The notes beneath the pieces were generated by a model. The model saw only the letters and a list, made by a program, of their open reading frames with translations, had not been told where the DNA came from and did not search any database. Shown piece after piece: positions 15,083 to 48,279 of a stretch of DNA of 64,000 nucleotides. Both the position numbers and the translations under genes were made by a program. The first letter of the stretch is position 1. Every line of letters starts with the position of its first letter. Source of the DNA: Saitoella complicata NRRL Y-17804 (lineage: Eukaryota > Ascomycota > Saitoellomycetes > Saitoellales > Saitoellaceae); assembly GCF_001661265.1 (NCBI RefSeq), contig NW_017566993.1, positions 186,001 to 250,000 on the forward strand, in the 5' to 3' direction.

Positions 15083-15707
15083 TTAGTTACTACCCTGCGA
15101 CTTGGATGCCCAGTCCAACCATGATCCGGTGTAGTTGCCCAAGTTCTTGTATCCAGCCGCCTTGGCAATAGCAGTCGCTGCTGTACTTCTCTTTCCTGAT
15201 CTGCAGTAGAAAACGATCTCCTGCTCCTTTGGTGGCTTCTCGAAGCCGTACTTGTCCTGGAACTGCAACTCGGAGAGGGAGAGGGCTTCCTGGAGGCTCT
15301 TGACGGACAGATTGATGGAGGTGGGGATGTTTCCTTGCTGGACCTCGTCGACCTCGCGGACATCGACGAGGAGGATGTTGCCGCGGTCAATGCCCTTTGT
15401 CAACTTCTTGACCTGTTTGTCGAACGTCAGCTGGGGATCACAAGGATCTCTCACGGTTTCAACTGACCTGATCGTAATCCCAAACTACAGCACCATTGTC
15501 ATCGACCTCCCTGTTAACACCAACACTGTAAGACCTGGCCGCGTTCGCAATGACCTGCGCCATCTCCGTCAGGGCCTGCTGCTGCTGCAAAGCCGGTCGC
15601 ACGGACGGGATGGCGAGGGTACGAGGAGCAGAAACGGCAGCCAGACTGGAGAAGGATCTAGAGTTGCGTGCGACGAAGGCGAGGGAGCGGCGGAGGGTGA
15701 AAGACAT
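15083..15707 (-). CDS. mitochondrial rhodanese-domain protein
   Basis: Single-domain rhodanese, a likely sulfurtransferase. Exons 15468-15707 and 15083-15412 with a 55-bp intron give 189 aa. The N-terminal 60 residues are rich in Arg/Ser/Ala with no acid (MSFTLRRSLAFVARNSRSFS), a probable mitochondrial presequence. The rhodanese fold shows ILLVDVREVDEV, then the active-site loop IVFYCRSGKRSTAA with the catalytic Cys, and ends YTGSWLDWASK. It resembles yeast Rdl1/Rdl2. An alternative acceptor 12 bp upstream would add LTFD without a frame change; the 55-bp intron fits the other genes better. The physiological substrate is unknown. Confidence 0.9.
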
Positions 15708-16032
15708 GAATATTGCTTCTCTGACCGAGAGTGGATGGAGGTGAATCTTGGAGTTTCTTGTCGAGGGCGTTGAACTTCGCGTGGCTTGAGAGGACGGCGG
15801 CAGCGCCGATTGCGTGCGAGGATCTGATAAGCGAGTTCTCTTCAGTCGAATTGTGATCCTAAGATCTGTCTTGTTAACCCATTTGGAGAATGACTTTCTT
15901 TTCTGATCCCTTCCCGTCTGGGTTGGAATATCACCGGAGTCATCAGGATGCAGGTGAACGTTGAGCGGGGTCCGAAAGGGAGATTACTTGGAGAGCATTC
16001 AAGAGCACAAGAGCATATACCCACCGTCCACA
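15708..16032. promoter_or_regulatory. shared divergent promoter, rhodanese / ETF-beta
   Basis: The 325 bp between two divergent ATGs must contain both promoters. No TATA box stands out. Both products are mitochondrial, which fits coordinated expression, but that is inference. Confidence 0.5.
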
Positions 16033-28933: not shown

Positions 28934-30336
28934 CTAAGCAACCGTCTCCTCCTTGCAGAAGATACCCTCCTTCAACAACTCATCAATCAAGGGTTGGTTA
29001 AGCACCTTGCTCATGGGCGCAAGGACACCAGCGGTCTTGATGATACCGTCAAGCACCTGCTGGGTAGCAACACCACAAGGAACACCAACCAACTTAGCCA
29101 TGGAGGTATAGCCTCCAGGGACACCGTAGTCGCACAAAGTGGAGGTGCGAGTCTCAAGGCGGCCATCGGCGTGCTCGATTTCAAACCTGTGCTGGAGCAT
29201 GACGAAGTCGCGCTCATCAGGACCGTACTGGCACTTGGGCTCCAGGGTAGCACAGAGAGTGTCAAGAGGGTTCTCGCAGGGAGTAATGACATTGTCGGAG
29301 AAGAGACCCAACCAACGGAAACCAGCAACGATGCGAGCCTCCTCCTCGGCGTTTTTGAACTGAGTCTTGGAGCGAATAGCAGCAATGAGGTCCTCCTCCT
29401 TGGTGGAAGAAACACCGAGTACCTTCGCGGTAGCCTCCTTCCAGGTGGCGGAGGAGCCCTTGGCCATGACCTCAACAGACTCATCAGAGAGGAAACCGAC
29501 ATCAACAAGAACCTTGATGAACTCAGGGAAACCCTGGTAACGGAGGGTACCACGGATGATGGTCTGGCACTCAGGAATGTTGTAGCGCTCCTTGTAAGGG
29601 GTAGAGTCACGGTTGGGGTAAGCAACAAAAGCGTAACCAGGGTAGATGAAGTAAGGCCGAGCGGCCTTCATGAGCTCAGGGCCCTCAATCTCGACAACCT
29701 TGCCATCCTTCTAGAACTTGGCAGCATTACGGAGAGCCAAGAGGACACCGCGGGAAGACCAGGAGAACTTGTAACCAAGAGGGTTGTTGGAGTTCTCAGG
29801 AGCAGGAAGACCACCACAGTAGGACAAGAAAGAGAGAATCTTGCCACCCTCAGCGTGGACCTCGTCGATGGTCTTGACGGCGTACAAGTGGTCAATTCCA
29901 GGGTCGAGGCCGATCTCGTTCATGACCGTGATACCAGCCTTCTTGGCCTCCTCATCTAGTTCCATCATGGCAGGGGAAACATAGGAAGTGGTGACGACGT
30001 GCGTCTTGTTGCGGATTGCAGACTTGATGACCTGGGCGTGGTGGGTGTAAGGGATCAAGGAGATCACGACATCGTGCTTAGCAACGGCAGCGTCGAGAGC
30101 GACATCGTCGGAGACATCGAGAGAGATAGCAGTGGAGCGCTCAGCACCGGCAATGAAAGCCTCAGCAGTAGCCTTAGTACGGCAAGCAACAGTGACCTTG
30201 TTCTCAGGACGCCTCAAGAGGTAGTCAAGAGTGGGCTTGGCGACGAAACCAGATCCGAGCAAAGGGATGTTCCTGAAACATAGTTAATGGCAATTCCCAA
30301 GCAGATCAAAGGTGTTACTCACTTCTCCGCAGCCAT
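28934..30336 (-). CDS. LYS9: saccharopine reductase (LYS9) with an in-frame TAG
   Basis: Saccharopine dehydrogenase (NADP, L-glutamate-forming), the penultimate step of fungal lysine synthesis. Exons 30323-30336 and 28934-30272 with a 50-bp intron read MAAEKNIPLLGSGFVAKPTL onward, with VVISLIPYTHHAQVIKSAIR, NEIGLDPGIDHLYAVKTIDE, SYCGGLPAPE and NPLGYKFSWSSRGVLLALRN. Counting through the TAG, 450 codons match yeast Lys9 (446 aa). At 29711-29713 codon 192 is TAG, between AAKF and KDGK; the family has a conserved Trp there (yeast AKYWKDGK). Everything downstream stays in frame and well conserved (PYFIYPGYAFVAYPNRDSTP, RGTLRYQGFPEFIKVLVDVG) to the true stop. It is either a one-base nonsense change, a sequencing error, or an edited or read-through codon. 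Confidence 0.9.
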
Positions 30337-30470: not shown

Positions 30471-31740
30471 ATGGACGCCCCCCGTGGACAGAATGACTTT
30501 GCGAGGTTTGCAAATGATCCTCTATATGTCGATTGTTACAGAGGACTTACATCGATGATTGCTCCAGATGGTACTACGGCTTGCCTCCGGTGTCGAGGAC
30601 GGTGCTCTTCGCATCTTTCTTGACTTCGATCGCTCCGCTGTTGCAACTGATCCACCCTTACCAAATCTTCAACATTTGGCCGATGACGTTCAAGGGACAG
30701 CTTTGGCGACCCTTCACGGCATCGCTTTATGCTGGTGGCGGTATCGAGATGCTGATGGGGTTGTTCTTCTTCTACAATCACAGTACGGATCTCGAGACTA
30801 AGAAATTCATGAGGACTGCGGATTATGCTTTCTTCTTGACGTTTTGCTGGGCAATCATCGTGGTAAGTCCTCTTGTTTATCTCTTAGATATTTCTTTTGA
30901 GGGGAATGTCTGTGGTATGGAGCTCGATGTTCTGTTCACCGAGCAAACACCTGGATCCAGATCATGGACGTTCTACAAGTCTTCTTATGCCCCGTTTCTG
31001 CCCTGTTTGTCGTTTCGAAGCCGGCATCTAGGTTCTGGTGGTGGGCTATACCAAGTAGCTCTCTCGCGGCTTCTCCATCCAAAATCATTCGCGGAGGAGT
31101 CGTGTGGGATGTCAGGGCCACTGCTTGAAATTCCAGACGGGCTCTCTTGTTCCCAGTCTGGGGTTGTGGTGTTCGACATCTCCTCGATTTAGGATAGCAA
31201 GAATTGAAATATCAACCAGGAAGAACCCCCGTTCGCTAACCGCGTCGGTGCTTCCAGGTGATTTCATACTTCATTGACGGATACCTCTACTTCAATGCCG
31301 TTTCCATGTCTGTCGCGTACGTCTGGTCTCAGATGAACCGTGACCGGCAAATGTCATTTATGGGCTTCATCCCCATGAAGGCGATGTGGCTGCCAGTGTC
31401 CATGTTGGTGATGACATTCGTCATGAATGGTCCTGGCTCTGCCTTTCAGATGCAGCTTGTCGGTCTCGTTGCGGGCCACACTTACCTCTTTGTGACCGAG
31501 ATCTACCCGGGAAGCCATGGTGTCCGTCCTCTTATTCATACTCCGACTTGGTTCGCCCGCCTCTTTGGCAATGCTGGCCATGCAAGGATGCGCACTATGC
31601 CGTACGGCACCGCTTTCAACCCAAGGGACAGGCAGACAGGTGCTGGAGATGCTGCTGCTGGCCAAGCTACGGGTTTTGGGTCTGCTACGTCGAACTCCAC
31701 TGCGTTCAGGGGGGCTGGACACCGTTTGGGAGACTCTTGA
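30471..31740 (+). CDS. DFM1: Derlin, ERAD membrane protein with SHP box
   Basis: Rhomboid pseudoprotease of ER-associated degradation. Exons 30471-30505, 30568-30862 and 31258-31740 give 270 aa. The first intron (62 bp) joins MDAPRGQNDFAR to WYYGLPPVSRTVLFASF; an alternative 38-bp intron would add eight residues in frame. The family block IFNIWPMTFKGQLWRPFTAS is followed by several hydrophobic helices and VAYVWSQMNRDRQMSFMGF. The last residues FRGAGHRL fit the SHP box FxGxGxxL that binds Cdc48/p97, as in Dfm1 and Derlin-1. The second intron is 395 bp, far longer than any other in the window. There is no rhomboid catalytic Ser-His pair, as expected. Confidence 0.9.
30863..31257 (+). other. unusually long (395 bp) intron of the Derlin gene
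   Basis: Starts with consensus gtaagt and ends cttccag, with a branch-like gctaac 24 bp before the end. Joining its flanks gives CWAIIVVISYFIDGYLY, a normal Derlin helix, so nothing coding is missing. I saw no C/D or H/ACA boxes and no tRNA inside. Both strands hold only short open frames. Confidence 0.75.
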
Positions 31741-36377: not shown

Positions 36378-37518
36378 CTACGATCGCATTTTCGTCTTCT
36401 TGTTCCACCTCGTCTTGTTGTTCGCCTTCTCCTGGATATCTCCGTACTTCCTCTTGAAGTACTCTTTGCGATCCGTCTCGGCCAACAACTCGCCCAAGAT
36501 AGTCTCCTTGCGCCCGCTTTTCGGAATACGAGCAGAGTAGTACTCTGTCGGACCTTCAACAATGGTACCCACTTGGAAGTACTTGGGGAAGGTTTTGGAG
36601 TTGTCCTTCCTGTAGTGACGCTTGGCGTCGAGGACGTTACGCATCTTGATAAGCTGAAGGTCACGCTTGATACCAGGCGTGAGCTCGGTAGCAGGCATGT
36701 CGAACCAGTCTTTGCCAACGGTGGCATCCTTTTGCTATGCCACGATGTTAGTTCCGTTCGGACAGAGAAAGAGCGGACCCATAGAACATCGAAGCCATTG
36801 CAACGATCATCAGTGTAACTATGACTATAAGAGCGCCGTCACCGCGAGTGGAATACCATAACGGTTTCCGATAATCTCGCTTCGTAGCTTGGGAAAAACT
36901 TATCATCAAGTGATGTTGCAATGCCCTCGATGCCCAAGTCCATAAGATCATGCTTACCTTCTGCTTTTCTTGCTTTGTGACATGGTTGTCGGTGATGGAA
37001 CGAGAGTGAATTGAGACACCGTGGACCGGATCTTCCACGATCTCTTCTTTTGGTGCAGCTCTCTGAATGACCTCCGCCGCCACCTTCGCTTTGGCTCCTT
37101 GGGTGCTGACATATGGCTGTGGCAAAGCGCCGGGGTTCAACTTGGGGAACTTCAACCAACTTCGATCCTCGTCTTTGAGCTTAGGAGCTTCAAGAGACAT
37201 CTCATCGTCGCCTTCCATACCACCTTGCTGCTTCTTTTGAAGGTTGTCAGTTGCGGCACCCAGGAGGCGTTCCATCATTTCTTCGCTGAACTCCTCGTCA
37301 TCGTCGGCGAGGAGAGTATGGCTGGACTTCGATGGAGAGACCATTGCCTTCACAGGTGACTGGGATCTTGCTCGGCGTGCTGGTGAACGGAGCTCAATGA
37401 CCTTGGAGGTGCCTTCGATGTGAGCGGTGTGGTTGTTGACGAGCTCCAAAAATTGGCCCTCGAGCGAGGGATCCGCAGGACCAGGTGAATCGTATCTTTG
37501 ACCGCCTCGAAGTTGCAT
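36378..37518 (-). CDS. FCF2: rRNA-processing protein Fcf2 (DNTTIP2/TdIF2 family)
   Basis: Nucleolar factor needed for early 35S pre-rRNA cleavage in the SSU processome. Exons 36958-37518, 36843-36887 (45-nt microexon) and 36378-36734, with introns of 70 and 108 bp, give 320 aa. The C-terminal Fcf2 domain reads KDWFDMPATELTPGIKRDLQ, then MRNVLDAKRHYRKDNSKTFP and KYFQVGTIVEG. The tail EKANNKTRWNKKTKMRS is basic. The N-terminal half is acidic and disordered, with S/TP and basic clusters. The microexon encodes LRSEIIGNRYGIPLA and keeps frame on both sides, but is the least secure part. Confidence 0.85.
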
Positions 37519-37747
37519 TTTGGTATCTGTTCTGGTATAGTTAGGGTGCTTGGACGAGGAGCGGATCAGAAGAGAAGAAACAAGTTGGGTTTCTCTCCAA
37601 GGCGGGAGCCGGCGCAGACTTTTTGGGCGAGAAAATTTTGGATGCGGGTGAAAAGTCGTGGGAAGAACTTGGACGTCGGAGGACGGAAATACACAAAACC
37701 AGGGGAATTTCGCTTGCGAACGTATTCTTAAAGTTTCTTGAACCATT

Positions 37748-38801
37748 CTAACTGTACGCCTTTCCTCCTGCCATCTTGTCAAACTCGATACACTCCTGCA
37801 TTCCCATGACATTGAAGAACTCCTTCGGACCCATTCCGTTGCAAGTCTTGACATCGGTTCCCTCGTTCTTGATCTCTTCGTAACCCGTCTTGAGGGCATG
37901 AGCAGCAGCACAGATACCAGCGAGCTAGATTGACCGTCAGTTAAGGTATAATGAGGAACGGTGTCAGTAGATCTGGACTCACCGGGAAGATAACGATCTT
38001 AAAGCCCATCTGTTTCGCTTCGGTGACTGTCCAGTTTGGCGTCGTTCCATTGGTAGCCAAGTTCAGTAAGACGGGATGCGGTGCCAGCTCCTGGATAGCG
38101 GTGACGGCATCCTCCTTGCTCTGCAGTCCTATTGACGTCTCGGTTCAGCACTCTTGGACTCGTAACATTCGATAGAGTACTAACCTTCCAGGAAAGCCAC
38201 TTCAGCACCTTCCGCAAAAGCAGCCTTCAGTCTCGCAACTGCATCCTCAAGGCCATTGGGCTGCAAAGCGTCCGTGCGAGCAATGATGACAGGAGCAGTA
38301 GGTCCCTTTGAGCGAGCAGCAACAACAGCTCTGATCTTGGTGAGATAATCCTCGAGAGGTACAACAATCTTGCCGGCAAGATGACCGCAACGCTTTGGCA
38401 GAACCTGGTCCTCGATGTGGAGGGCGGCTACTCCGGCCCTTTCGTACATCTTGATTGTTCGTGCTGCGTTCAAAGGACCGCCGAATCTAATGATCGTCAG
38501 ATTCGAAGTTCATCTCAAGACGGTCAAATACCCACCCTGTATCAGCATCGCAGATCACCGGCACGTCGCCAGCAACGTCGGTGATCATGTTCGCATTCCT
38601 GACGAAGTCATCCTGTCCAGCAATTCCCAAGTCAGGGTGACCGGTGGTCGAAGCAGCGGTACCGGCGCCGGTCATGTACAAGGCGTCGAAGCCTACAGAC
38701 ATTGCGACACGGGCGGAGATACCATCGTATACGCCGGGAAGGACGACGGTCTTGGAAGGATCGGCGAGGAATTCACGGAGCTTCTGAGCGGGAGGAGTCA
38801 T
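37748..38801 (-). CDS. isocitrate lyase/PEP mutase-family lyase
   Basis: Alpha/beta-barrel lyase or hydrolase acting on 2- or 3-carboxylate substrates. Four exons, 38536-38801, 38185-38486, 37983-38128 and 37748-37924, with introns of 49, 56 and 58 bp, give 296 aa. Seen: VVLPGVYDGISARVAMSVGF, DADTGFGGPLN with the metal-binding aspartates, HIEDQVLPKRCGHLAGK with the catalytic Cys loop KRCGH, and PVIIARTDALQ. The KRCGH loop separates it from true PEP mutases and fits methylisocitrate lyase, 2,3-dimethylmalate lyase or oxaloacetate acetylhydrolase (oxalate-forming). I cannot tell which. No targeting sequence, so probably cytosolic. Confidence 0.87.
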
Positions 38802-39068
38802 TGTGGAGGTGTATGGATCTTGGAGTACCTGGTTGTAGGTACTCTACTATTTATGGGTTCCCCGAGGACGGCTAAGTACATACATACAGCGAACTCGTGT
38901 CCATCTGACATGGATGTACGTAATTTCAGCCCTTGCCGAGATTCCCGGATGTCCTGCTCTGAGAGGCGTGGAGTCCGTCAACCCACAACGGGGAGAGATA
39001 TGATCGAAGCTCGGTATTAACATAACATAGCTTTTCTGAACGTTGTTCATGTTCTTCTCTCTGCTAGA

Positions 39069-39610: not shown

Positions 39611-39751
39611 GCCGACACCTAGTTGAGTTGCTGCTATAACATGTCCGGACTGACGTATTTAACGTCAATTGCTACGCGCGGAGTTCAGCAGGTGCTGCAG
39701 CTGGTTCAAACCTTAAATTCAGAACACGACACCTTCAACTCAACTTACAAC

Positions 39752-40684
39752 ATGGTGGTTGGCGGACAACGAGGAGGTAAATGGAAAGCGAGGGCGACCA
39801 GACAATATCGGATCAAGCATGGCATACCACCGCCGCCTCGTCCTGGACAGCAAGCTGTCCCCGAAGACGATTGGGAAGGATCGTCCGACGACGACGACGC
39901 CCCTAACGCGGAGGGTCAGAAGACTGGGGGTACGCTAGATCCTCTCCCTGGAGAAGAGCGCAAGGACGTGAAGTCGGATGATGAAGATGAGGATGAAGGG
40001 AAGACGTTTAGCAGAAGGAGGAAGATGCAGTCAAATGCTTGGCGATACGAAGAAGAGGAGGTGGATCCTCGTCTTGGTAAGTTCCTAGGCACTGGAGCTG
40101 TGACGCACTCGATTGATTGTTATGCAGAACCCGAAGAGCTGGAGCCGGAGCCAGATTATGCACATTTGCCAGCTCGCGAACTCAATCTCGTCAACAGCGA
40201 AGAGGGGCCATGCGTGCATTCAGACGACGATCATGAGGACATTCCGGGCCTGCCGAAAGCAAAGAGAAAACCGAAAGTGCTATATGTAAAACGTGAGGAC
40301 TATGCGGAGCTCCGGAGTAACATAGACAAAGCCAATGCTGCCAGAGCCTTCAAGGAGCGATATGGTGCGAAGCCTACACTTGCCAGGACGCGGGCCAAAA
40401 CTACGGCAGACGGATATGAAAAAGGTGAAGGAGCGGAGGTGGAAGACATCGATGCATTTTTGAAGGGCTTGGACGTTAACGATGGTACGTGATACACGGA
40501 CGCAACCTCTGCAGTTCTTCTTCATATAAGCCTTGTGCTGACAAATCTCTAATCAGCAGATATGAAAACTGCTCGCAACATGGCTTCAAAAGAACGTGGG
40601 TCTGTCCCAGCAGCGTTGAGTGGTGGTAAGGGCCCCGACGGTCAGGACAACATGGAGAAATGGCTGGATGACATGTTGGCATGA
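39752..40684 (+). CDS. acidic nuclear-type protein of unknown function
   Basis: Exons 39752-40484 and 40557-40684 with a 72-bp intron (or 75 bp, cagcag acceptor) give 286 aa. Basic N-terminus GGQRGGKWKARATRQYRIKH, then long Asp/Glu tracts, SNAWRYEEEEVDPRLGKFLG as the most structured-looking patch, KAKRKPKVLYVKREDYAELR, and two similar acidic-amphipathic motifs DIDAFLKGLDV and MEKWLDDMLA near the end. The paired hydrophobic-acidic motifs look like short binding motifs. An in-frame ATG at 39641 would add 37 residues. Family not recognised with confidence; a nuclear or nucleolar role is only suggested by composition. Confidence 0.7.
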
Positions 40685-42342
40685 GAAAGGACTGCATTTC
40701 GCCAGCTACTGTCTTTGGCAATATAGCTACTTTGAGTAATAATCTGGGTGCCATCCATGTTAAGAAGGGCATGGGCAGCTGTAGCGCGTGCACGACGTTA
40801 CAGCTGTGTGCAAAATTCCCACCCGTGCGTGATATAACGTCTCCTTAGTCGGAACATCGACAACTCACTAAACACGTAAGATCACGTACCCCGAAACCGC
40901 CGGCTTAGCTCGTCGAAGATTGGCGGTCACCGACACCAGCAGATGCAATCCGGAGGGAAAAGAGACCTAAGACCATCATCGAGGTCCCAGACGAAGACGC
41001 AAAAATTGACCATGAGTGTATTTACGATGATTTTGACGCGTTTCTGATCGTTACGAGAGAATCCAAGCCCCATTCACGGTGGATCCGCTGAAAAAATGGA
41101 TTGATGTCAAACCCTTTTTGCTCGAAGCAGCAGTCGAGGAGTTGCGCCAGGACCGTACCATCAAGGAAGGCATGAACATTCACTCCCTTACACCTGAAGT
41201 CACCTTCAAAGTTGTCCTCGGAAGGGCACAGGACAGCTTGGTGTCGACTACGTACTGACAGGGATTGGGAAGGCTTCGTTCGACCCGTCGACAGTGACCG
41301 CAACAACACTAACATCAAATGGTCGGCTTTCAACGAAATCGATACAGGCTCAATCAATACAGGCTTAATCAAGGAGACCTTCTTCGAGGTCTATGAGGTC
41401 CCAGGCAAGGCTCAACAAACCTGCTTTTAGTTCTGGTCTTCGATGTGGTATTCTTCTTTTCTCGATGGCATGCTTAGTTCTTCCGCAATAACCTTACAAA
41501 GCTCAACACCTTACTCCAAAGTCACTCGTAGAAAAGTACGAGGTGACAAGTATTATGCCCATTGCTGCACCTAGAGGGTTTAGGTTGTCTGGGCTACATC
41601 TCGATGCAGGGCATTTGGACAGCCATACTGCCATTTTGTGGGGGAATCTGTCCGTGACAATGGCAAGTGCCTGAAAATAAATGAATTGATTGCTTCGATT
41701 GAAAAGACTATCCAAGAAAACTAGCGAAGGAAGGCCTGATGCTGACCCCCAGCATCAGCTGTCATTTGTCGATTAGCCTTCACCTTGAGCTGCGCCTTGG
41801 TTAAAGCACAACAACAGTTCCTGTACATTTTGCTGATTTTGTCAAGGAGGGTGTTGATGTATTCGATTGCTAGGCGGACGAATGCTGGGGGGTCTTCATG
41901 AGCGTTAGTGTGTGTGTTGTTACGCTTCATCCAGCTCTTCATCATACCGAGACAGAGGTCGATTGAATGCAGATCAGGGGAGCACAGCCAAACTAAAAAG
42001 TCTTGCGAATCACGTGTCGCGCACGTACACCACACAGCAAACAGACCGTAAAACAAAATCACGTCATATCTTGCGCAAATCGAGTCGAAAACGACTGCTG
42101 ATGGATGCTATCGAACCATCGCCGCGTAGGGCTTCTTCCCTTGCTGCGAGAGCATGTGTTTGACACGTAGTCGAAACTGACGTCCCATCGACAGCGCTAC
42201 CCAGACTTCAGAACCGAAGAAAACCTTCAACAACCCGCGACGAATCAGAACCACTTCCCATTCCATCAGATGACGACGAAGAGTTCCAGTTGCAACCATT
42301 CATCATCAAATTTGCTGCCACTAGGACTGGGGGTAGGCCTCG
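40685..42342. other. degenerate sequence, start of a gene-poor island
   Basis: No intact gene. The plus strand near 41085-41250 holds short protein-like stretches such as WIDVKPFLLEAAVEELRQDR and EGMNIHSLTPEVTFKVVLGR, and near 41310-41430 NIKWSAFNEIDTGSINTGLI, but frames change and stops interrupt. I read it as a decayed gene of a multi-copy fungal family or a transposon-associated gene. The family cannot be named from sequence alone. Confidence 0.45.
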
Positions 42343-43497
42343 GTGGAAGGGCTGGTCAGCATTCTATCGTCATGGGATTATGACTACGTCCACGACGTGC
42401 TCATGAAAAAGGCCGCCGAAGATCTTTGTGACGACCCGAGCTGCCCTGACGACATATTCCCCGGGGATTTCGCCATGACCATGGGTTACCGAATCATCCG
42501 AGGTAGGGAAAAAACTGCGGTGACGAGACTGCGTAGTGCTGCCGACTTAGAGGACTTGAAGGATCAAGTGAAGGATCTACAGGAGCTGTAAAGCAGTAAC
42601 AACAAGAACTGGAGCGTATCCATCAGTCTTCAAGCGATATACGTCCCTCCCGACTCGAATGGATCTTCAGACGGTGAACTCGATACTCCCGCCCGCACCC
42701 TTGGAGGACGTAAGACGCGCAAAAAGCACAGAAACAACCCCTCCAAGTGTATGCTGAAGGAAGTGAAGCAACATGCTGAGAACAATAACTTCAAGCGTGC
42801 TATTTTGTCTAATGTCACCAAGCTTCAGGAAGAATGGGTATGTGAAGAACATGAAGGGTACTGCTGGAAGGTCCCAAACTCAGAGAAGCACATGCACCTT
42901 GCATCACATCACCTGAGCCGCTGGGGGCAGTTCATGGCCCTTCCCGACAGTGCTATTGATGAGTTGGCACCACCGCATACATTGACCTTTGACAAATTTC
43001 ACAGAGGCACTGTGCACGCCGCAGCAAGCTCCGAGAGTTACAGTACACCAACTCCTACGTCGAGATCTACCCTTGCAATCTCCTCGACTCCCGCTGTGCC
43101 GGCTGCTACTCCGATTCCCACGGTCTTCACTGCGTTTACCGGAAGCCCATTACGGGTGGAGGACGCTGAGGATGTAGCACGCTTCATGAGATTTGTGGCG
43201 AAAAACAACCCTAGCTACACCAGGTTCGATGCTGCGCAGACCGAGCAAGCTTTTTGCGAAAATGTATTGGCACTCGAGGATTTAAAAAGGGAGCCGGTCA
43301 GACCTGCCCAGGTGTCCGACCAGGAGATATGCTTGCTGCGCAGCGCTGCTTGCCCCTTTGGAAGGCAAAAAAGAAGATCAAGCGCCGGCTCGAGGCCTAA
43401 CTGCAGTCCATGGATTCAGACGTATGTCCTCCCAGCACTCCCAGCACCCCCCCGGAGAGTAGCATGCTGGCGAGCTTGCTTTGTAATGAGGTTCTAA
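42343..43497 (+). pseudogene. remnant of a multi-copy-type fungal gene of unknown function
   Basis: Two open pieces in different frames, 42343-42591 (DLEDLKDQVKDLQEL end) and 42592-43497. The second holds EEWVCEEHEGYCWKVPNSEK followed by HMHLASHHLSRWGQFMAL. That spacing of C, H, C/W and a WG/WA tail resembles a segment I associate with repetitive gene families in mushroom genomes. The downstream part is Ser/Thr/Pro-rich. The pieces could be exons, but no good splice pair joins them, and the flanks are repeat-like. Likely a broken copy. Confidence 0.4.
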
Positions 43498-45930: not shown

Positions 45931-46578
45931 GAGCCTATTGAGGCCTACCTAGGCCTCTTGCCGAGTTGTTTGAAGCTGTTTTGCAATTGCGATTGAGGAG
46001 GTTCGTGCACGCAGGATGATGCGCGTCGAGCATTTTGCAGACTGCTGTAACGTTGTACTCTACTTAGAGTGCAAGGACAAAGCCATATGTCTGGAATCAA
46101 CAATGGAAATGATTCAGCACCCTCATCTGAAATATGCACCGCATGTCTCTTTTGATTCAATTCACGAGCTTGCCCTGCGGACTGAGCTTGCGTTTAATTG
46201 CTTCCTTTGTTCTGATGCGCGACCGGTACCAGCCCTTGTCCTGTCAACAAAAACGGTACAACCGCCTGGAAAGGCTCCCGCCCGCAACACATGCTTTATC
46301 TGTCTCACATTGAAACATGAGCGACAGGAGCCCATGTATTCGCAGGCGTTTGTTTAAGGCATGCTGTCGTTTGTCTTCATCTATCCCTAACAACCTGTGT
46401 GCCTCTTGTTGCCTCTGCCGCCAGCGATATAGCGACTGTCACCGCAATCGCGCGACAAGCACCGAGGAAACATCGCTATACTCTTGCGACTGTGACTCAG
46501 TCCGTCTTCGGCCTTTGCTGCTCCCTACCGACGTCGTCGCTTCTGTTCTTGCAACACTCACAGCTCACAGCGCCCAGC
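45931..46578. other. intergenic, right edge of the repeat island
   Basis: 648 bp with only short unconvincing frames (for example plus 46016-46357). Presumably the rest of the transposon flank and the promoter of the next gene. Confidence 0.4.
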
Positions 46579-48279
46579 ATGTCATCGACCCGCTCTGCGA
46601 TCCAATGCCACATCATTCAGCTTGGTTGTTTTGCTTCGGACGTACCCTTCTGCGTCTATCTATATCCTGACCCGTCTTCTTCACCTTCAGGCAAGCCGTC
46701 CTTACTGCCAACGTTGCGTTCTCGTGACGTTGACTTCCTCTTCTTTGACACACCTTCGTTCCTCCGTGACTCTCGGGTCATTCCGCATGCTGTCGTCGCC
46801 AGTCCAGTTGCGCACTTTCGCACTTGCCCTCCTACGCATCCCGACTTTATCGATGATTACTTCACATTTTCGGTAATTCATACCGCCGGTGGCAGACTCA
46901 AGTGCTCTGCTCTTGCCGACCTCTGCAAGTTCACGATTGATGAATTGGTGCAAGGCCATAGTGCATCAGTGTTGAAGTCTATCAAGGGCCTGGTCATGGT
47001 TGAACCTGTCCGGAGTGAGTTTCAATGCGTCTTGGTAGACGTAACTAAGGAGGGTCTGCCGGCGTCCAGACCGGTGACATCTGGCAGTCAAAAAAGCGCA
47101 GAGTCTTCCACACATGCCCCCGCAGCTCGTACTCCTCCGAGGAATACTGTAGCGAAAGCTGCGACTGTTTCTCCGGTGGTCGTTAAGGACGAGCCGACAT
47201 CACCAGTCATCCGCCCGGCGACGACTGTACCTGGCTCCACGTCACCTACGAGCCGCCCTCAGCATCCAGCGCACATCCGCCTTCAACACGGCTCGACACA
47301 TCCGACTCCTAGTTCTCAACCATTGGCTTCACAGGATGGCGTGTCTAGCCCTCGGCGGCGTCGTATGCTCACGGTAAATCCTTCTTTGCAAACAGCTACG
47401 CTCGCTTGCTTGAGTCCCGGTATGCCATTATCAGCGAGGCTTGACCCGGAGCGTAGGAAAGACGTGATGGAGAGCATGACGGTACGTGAGCGTCAAGCCG
47501 CTCTGATTCAGGAGAGGTCCATCGGCGGCGCCCAAAGGTCTCGTTCCTCGAAACGAGGGTTGCCAACTGAGCTGGACACCGATGGGGCTTCTTTTCTTGG
47601 CTCCGCTACGAGAAGTGCCAAGCGTCGTGCCCCGCCTGCTCGCCTTAGCATCAGTGCTCCGTCGGACGCTCATATCCCAACTATCCGATCAGCGCCGTTG
47701 CACAGAACGCAAGGTCGTGATCTGCCTCTCGACAGTCCTCAACCGATGCCTGAGACGAACAGGCCATTGGCTACGTCGTTACCAAGAACCGTGGACATGA
47801 ATCGACTACCCTCCATAAGCGATTTTCTCAACGATATGAAGGCAACATCCAATCCTCCTGGAACCGAGCGGCCGTCGAACCCAAAACTCGCCACTCTCCC
47901 GCCGCCTCGGCCTCCACATTGTAATAGCAATACGAGCCTACAGCCACCTGCAAATCTTGCCTCGTCATTGGATCAGGCTGTACAGCCTTCATTGCGGCCT
48001 GCGAGCGTTACATCGATTATTCACTCCCAGCAGCCTCCGACACCGCCGTCTCCCAACATTCACCAGGAAGCTACCAACACCTTTTTTGCTGCTTTTGAGA
48101 ACGTTCCCGGTGTGAAACGCCGCATCAGGCCGGTACAGCTGAGTTCAGGCTCTGGCGCAGATCTGGAGATGGCGAGGACGACGGGGGAGACGGATGAAGC
48201 TATCGGGAAGAGGAAGGCGGCATTTCTAGAAGTTTGTGGGAAGGCGTTCGATCTACTTATAGGAAGGACTGTGGTTTGA
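46579..48279 (+). CDS. Ser/Pro-rich protein of unknown function (566 aa)
   Basis: Single-exon frame from ATG 46579 (MSSTRSAIQCHIIQLGCFAS). The frame is open upstream to 46399 without an ATG, so an upstream exon is possible. Residues 1-170 look folded (DVPFCVYLYPDPSS, RDVDFLFFDTPSFLRDSRVI, DDYFTFSVIHTAGGRLKCSA, LADLCKFTIDELVQG). The middle 350 residues are Ser/Thr/Pro/Arg-rich and disordered, with a possible SUMO motif VVKDEP. The C-terminus is helical again (NTFFAAFENVPGVKRRIRP, KAAFLEVCGKAFDLLIG). I recognise no domain. Position next to the repeat island suggests a fast-evolving gene. Confidence 0.7.
   Translation: MSSTRSAIQCHIIQLGCFASDVPFCVYLYPDPSSSPSGKPSLLPTLRSRDVDFLFFDTPSFLRDSRVIPHAVVASPVAHFRTCPPTHPDFIDDYFTFSVIHTAGGRLKCSALADLCKFTIDELVQGHSASVLKSIKGLVMVEPVRSEFQCVLVDVTKEGLPASRPVTSGSQKSAESSTHAPAARTPPRNTVAKAATVSPVVVKDEPTSPVIRPATTVPGSTSPTSRPQHPAHIRLQHGSTHPTPSSQPLASQDGVSSPRRRRMLTVNPSLQTATLACLSPGMPLSARLDPERRKDVMESMTVRERQAALIQERSIGGAQRSRSSKRGLPTELDTDGASFLGSATRSAKRRAPPARLSISAPSDAHIPTIRSAPLHRTQGRDLPLDSPQPMPETNRPLATSLPRTVDMNRLPSISDFLNDMKATSNPPGTERPSNPKLATLPPPRPPHCNSNTSLQPPANLASSLDQAVQPSLRPASVTSIIHSQQPPTPPSPNIHQEATNTFFAAFENVPGVKRRIRPVQLSSGSGADLEMARTTGETDEAIGKRKAAFLEVCGKAFDLLIGRTVV

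Follow-up and report, generated by a model that had tools for sequence, protein, structure and literature searches.

A lone in-frame TAG in the saccharopine reductase gene LYS9 of Saitoella complicata

The LYS9 locus and its interrupted frame

The 64,000-nucleotide stretch analysed here (the window; Saitoella complicata NRRL Y-17804, contig NW_017566993.1, positions 186,001 to 250,000) carries on its minus strand a gene for saccharopine reductase, LYS9, whose spliced frame of 450 codons is broken by a single in-frame TAG at codon 192; the frame is open for 258 codons beyond it. The features of the gene, in window coordinates, are as follows.

30323..30336, minus strand: LYS9 exon 1, with the start at 30336; codons 1-4 and two bases of codon 5, so that MAAEK crosses the intron; spliced translation MAAEKNIPLLGSGF
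30273..30322, minus strand: LYS9 intron of 50 nt, GTGAGT...TTTCAG, predicted from the reading frame
28934..30272, minus strand: LYS9 exon 2, up to the native stop; matches PDB 1e5l and 2axq, with the C-terminus aligned to both
29711..29713, minus strand: in-frame TAG, codon 192 of 450 (CTA on the plus strand); top two-sided coding score of 4246 stops
28934..28936, minus strand: native LYS9 terminator, TAG, codon 451
29701..29723, minus strand: RNA hairpin predicted by folding, with the A of the UAG in its triloop

The exon-2 part of the protein aligns to residues 6-450 of PDB 1e5l (E 3.7e-201; 70% identity) and to residues 25-467 of PDB 2axq (E 2.5e-182; 65% identity). The search output gave molecule names; we take 1e5l to be the Magnaporthe enzyme, 2axq the yeast enzyme and 5l78, considered below, an animal enzyme. 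Similarity to the solved fungal saccharopine reductases is thus full-length, whereas the reading frame is not uninterrupted, and the TAG sits mid-way in an ungapped conserved block of the alignment to 1e5l and 2axq. An earlier note on this DNA had described LYS9 as intact over 450 codons save for the TAG, and its frame and conservation as running on for 258 codons past it; both descriptions hold, the stop at 29713-29711 being isolated and the similarity reaching the C-terminus of both references.

TAG is read as a stop here, because the LYS9 frame closes with TAG just where its C-terminus aligns with both fungal references. The CBF5 ORF (open reading frame) also terminates in TAG. These two ends support the earlier statement that the code is not reassigned, but one of the other genes listed there as ending in TAG, EXO70, is a doubtful example: the ORF with the Exo70 domain terminates in TGA, and an additional exon is possible.

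LYS9 starts at its own ATG; the ATG assigned to a divergent gene, a later exon of which matches Pfam DER1, is 134 bp away. This DER1-like gene, on the plus strand, has an apparent intron of ~395 nt (about 30863-31257, GTAAGT...TTCCAG) that is far longer than the 50-nt LYS9 intron, and the ORF of the upstream exon is open into it, to 31192. LYS9 appears from its sequence to be unfused to spermidine synthase, although no search aimed at spermidine synthase was made, and in this respect to be of ascomycete type: the two genes are reported as fused in 48 of 48 basidiomycetes and separate in 27 of 27 ascomycetes (PMC10051792).

For comparison we used the best 80 of at least 556 relatives (at least 588 stretches) in a scan of genome_contigs; judging by titles, all of these 80 are prokaryotic and none is a fungal record. 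Among 57 pattern matches in viral_contigs there was no relative. In a LYS9 tree built from 28 of 83 rows, three of them fungal with that of the window included, the window protein joins Magnaporthe against yeast (support 95/83). An identity of 70% to the Magnaporthe protein seems low if both fungi were Sordariomycetes.

Coding signal and selection on either side of the stop

In-frame stops in all six frames were scored by the codon-usage signal on each side, the codon model having been trained on 7111 codons from 15 window ORFs other than LYS9; these had been picked as open ORFs and hence cannot themselves reveal stops. Among the 4246 stops scanned, each 40 or more codons away from either end of the window, the LYS9 TAG had the best two-sided coding score (13.3; next best 5.1), and it exceeds chance expectation. 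The runner-up, at 1847-1849 in a Mei2-like gene, lies inside an apparent GT-AG intron (GTAATG...TTACAG). The fourth-ranked stop is an in-frame TAA at 42589-42591 on the plus strand, within 42337-43497 and between open stretches of 84 and 301 codons; a 47-nt intron (GTAAAG...TTCAAG) might take it out. A separate scan for frame switches in the window returned two candidates, both accounted for on inspection by apparent GT-AG introns, and left no switch unexplained among the stretches with strong codon signal to which it is sensitive. Because the stop is isolated among 4246 and no frame switch is unexplained, the assembly does not look noisy here, and we rejected general noise as its source; the scans are nevertheless compatible with one wrong base.

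There is no relaxation of selection on LYS9. Lineage-specific changes number 39 in the window protein (9 before the stop, 30 after), 39 in Magnaporthe (13 before the stop position, 26 after) and 62 in yeast (23 and 39). In the LYS9 tree the terminal branches measure 0.26 and 0.23. Codon adaptation, measured against the window MDH and CBF5 genes, is 0.717 before the stop and 0.682 after it, compared with 0.19-0.53 in 14 other window genes; along the downstream part it declines from 0.746 through 0.677 to 0.629. The conserved residues are kept as well: where 95% of the prokaryotic relatives agree, LYS9 retains 37 of 42 columns before the stop and 21 of 23 after, and six of the seven departures, including both after the stop, are common to Magnaporthe. 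Given the equal counts of changes (39 versus 39), the codon bias and the conserved residues, normal selection appears to act on LYS9 still, or to have acted on it until very recently. An old pseudogene was rejected on the relative-rate count and the strong codon bias after the stop. RIP (repeat-induced point mutation) damage was rejected too, as the dinucleotide indices carry no such signature: TpA/ApT and (CpA+TpG)/(ApC+GpT) are 0.76 and 1.18 in LYS9 and 0.66 and 1.18 in the window, with cut-offs of 0.89 and 1.03.

The sole departure not shared with Magnaporthe is a Pro (CCT) at codon 8, at 30265-30263 on the minus strand, just ahead of the GSG of the NADP-binding motif. This column holds Leu in 77 of the 80 prokaryotic relatives and in both fungal references, and codon 8 presumably belongs to strand 1 of the NADP-binding fold. 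The Pro is possibly another lesion carried by this allele, or else natural variation.

Elsewhere in the window, a minus-strand gene at about 15100-15710, which we take to be rhodanese-like from a motif, is opposite in strand to the listed ORF 15252-15773; its N-terminus is of mitochondrial type, and an apparent GT-AG intron lies near 15464. At E 0.001 there were no Pfam matches for the long ORFs 36748-37911, 38415-39020, 39623-40492, 42751-43497 and 46399-48279. Scans of the window for Rfam families at gathering thresholds and for tRNAs each returned 0 matches.

Origin of the stop codon

We tentatively favour, at somewhat less than even confidence, a very recent single-base nonsense allele in an ordinary ascomycete LYS9. 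One recent base change would have turned codon 192 into TAG; the product would end after 191 residues, with the C-terminal 259 residues lost, and this copy of LYS9 would yield no saccharopine reductase. The strain would then be lysine-requiring, unless a second LYS9 copy exists. A genuine stop left uncorrected would represent a very recent loss of lysine independence, caught before gene decay. Several points weigh against this proposal. A consensus error predicts the same picture, and it is by inference that we place the base in the organism, date it as recent and ascribe to it an effect on the enzyme. Loss of lysine synthesis should be counter-selected in a free-living fungus, the lack of relaxed selection means that there is no sign that such a loss was tolerated, and natural variation may account for the Pro at codon 8.

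An assembly base error, with a sense codon and a normal LYS9 in the strain, is a serious possibility, to which we give roughly one chance in three. On each side of the stop LYS9 resembles a working gene in substitution rate, codon bias and conserved residues, primary biosynthetic genes are rarely lost, and one isolated base is the sole lesion of its kind in the window scan. Against an error, no further signs of wrong bases or indels appear within the reach of the scans, and the TAG lies, by eye, outside any homopolymer or repeat. The data are predicted about equally by a null allele and a consensus error; our weak lean towards the allele comes from the lack of anything else error-like in the window scans and from the one further odd residue, Pro at codon 8. 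Should the base be an error, the case is a caution against inferring recoding from a single assembly.

The earlier note had put A-to-I editing of UAG to UGG (Trp) first, with a null allele or a base error as alternatives. We judge these alternatives likelier, since the premise of a conserved Trp fails and the fit of the hairpin is largely free. At the codon-192 column the solved enzymes have Trp (yeast), Tyr (Magnaporthe) or Leu (animal, 5l78), and the 82 aligned relatives (80 prokaryotes and the two fungi) have Leu 62, Trp 7, Arg 5, Lys 3, Ile 2, Tyr 1, Met 1 and Gln 1, the seven Trp being those of yeast and six prokaryotes. With the residue differing among the solved enzymes and Leu predominating in prokaryotes, the supposed Trp conservation is not borne out and the premise of editing is unsupported. 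A Trp at codon 192 would probably be tolerated by the enzyme, because yeast Lys9 has Trp there, and an edited product should therefore work; the nearer fungal reference, Magnaporthe, has Tyr instead.

Editing would provide full-length Lys9 only where the site is edited, as with premature stops in Fusarium and Neurospora; in F. graminearum about 70 genes are reported to have a premature UAG corrected by it (PMC11156358). Fungal A-to-I editing is described as favouring hairpin loops and a context of U at -1 with a purine, A or G, at +1 and +3 (PMC11156358). The LYS9 context, TTC TAG AAG GAT, agrees with this preference (U at -1, G at +1, A at +3), with the U and the G inherent in UAG, and the A of the UAG lies in the triloop of the predicted 61-nt fold, whose z of -0.16 against shuffles indicates no excess stability. 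The predicted hairpin probability is 0.99-1 with flanks of 15-100 nt, 0.94 with 150 nt and 0.96 with 250 nt, but 0.105 with 400 nt (801-nt context). For a control comparison, TAG was substituted in silico for in-frame Trp and Tyr codons in 16 window ORFs, among them LYS9. A hairpin probability of at least 0.99 was reached at only 5 of the 92 Trp and 9 of the 218 Tyr sites; in the minimum-energy fold, the A fell within a hairpin loop at 25/92 and 72/218, respectively. The LYS9 hairpin is thus unusual by this measure, yet 495 of 1000 synonymous recodings of the 63-nt stretch, drawn from the codon usage of LYS9 itself, also reached 0.99 or more. Because of these recodings, the predicted hairpin comes largely with the protein sequence and codon bias and needs no selection, and together with the 801-nt fold they leave it with little weight in favour of editing. 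The preferred sequence context claimed earlier stands, and the site agrees with the hairpin preference too, but this fit comes largely free with the coding context.

The known occurrence of editing argues further against it. Genome-wide editing in fungi is said to be confined to sexual development (PMC11156358, PMC4817773) and is reported chiefly from sexual tissue of Sordariomycetes and Pyronema, being rare in hyphae (PMC11156358, PMC11169179, PMC11087585); F. graminearum hyphae have 33 sites with a mean below 5.5% (PMC11169179). Editing was reportedly not found in A. nidulans or B. cinerea (PMC11156358), and separate origins in Sordariomycetes and Pezizomycetes are suggested by the authors of PMC11087585. 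Sexual-stage editing that is rare in hyphae would fit a constitutive lysine gene poorly. Among the papers listed by literature searches, some of which were aimed at editing, none was seen to connect saccharopine with RNA editing, judged mostly from titles and the openings of abstracts. We therefore consider editing of this codon improbable. It is slightly less probable still that the full-length enzyme depends on UAG editing, with lysine synthesis gated by editing at least partly outside sexual tissue. Correction at the RNA level would place primary metabolism, rather than a sexual-stage gene, under the control of fungal stop-codon editing, and would make the reach of fungal mRNA editing directly testable with one amplicon.

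Ribosomal read-through of the UAG at a useful rate, also named earlier as an alternative, is very improbable. Frame and signs of selection do persist past the stop, but the efficient fungal read-through motif is described as UGA CU(A), with lower read-through when UAG or UAA replaces UGA (PMC4207609), and the LYS9 context is UAG AAG in place of UGA followed by CU. Moreover, the cases published in that account lengthen a protein at its C-terminus rather than supplying an enzyme core (PMC4207609).

Least credible is a stop within a missed short intron or a reassigned TAG: TTCTAG resembles a 3' splice site, and in CHE1 orthologues of Fusarium such a stop is reported to have led automated annotation to insert spurious introns (PMC11169179), but any intron here would delete conserved protein, because the residues on each side of the stop align gap-free to Magnaporthe and yeast, and reassignment is rejected by the TAG that terminates both LYS9 and the CBF5 ORF.

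Comparison with known systems

The correction sites of PUK1, AMD1 and CHE1 in F. graminearum and N. crassa share with LYS9 a lone in-frame UAG in a conserved protein, a purine at +1 and +3, and the A in a predicted hairpin loop. In contrast to these mainly sexual-stage sites, LYS9 is a constitutive biosynthetic gene, and its predicted hairpin is largely accounted for by protein sequence and codon bias. With the UGA CU(A) sites of fungal metabolic enzymes it has in common a stop followed by an open, conserved frame; however, those sites precede a targeting tail, whereas the LYS9 stop lies mid-enzyme in a UAG AAG context. There is also a close likeness to the LYS9 proteins of Magnaporthe and yeast, whose conserved residues are kept in the window gene on each side of the stop and from which it differs in a frame broken by TAG at codon 192 and in the Pro at codon 8.
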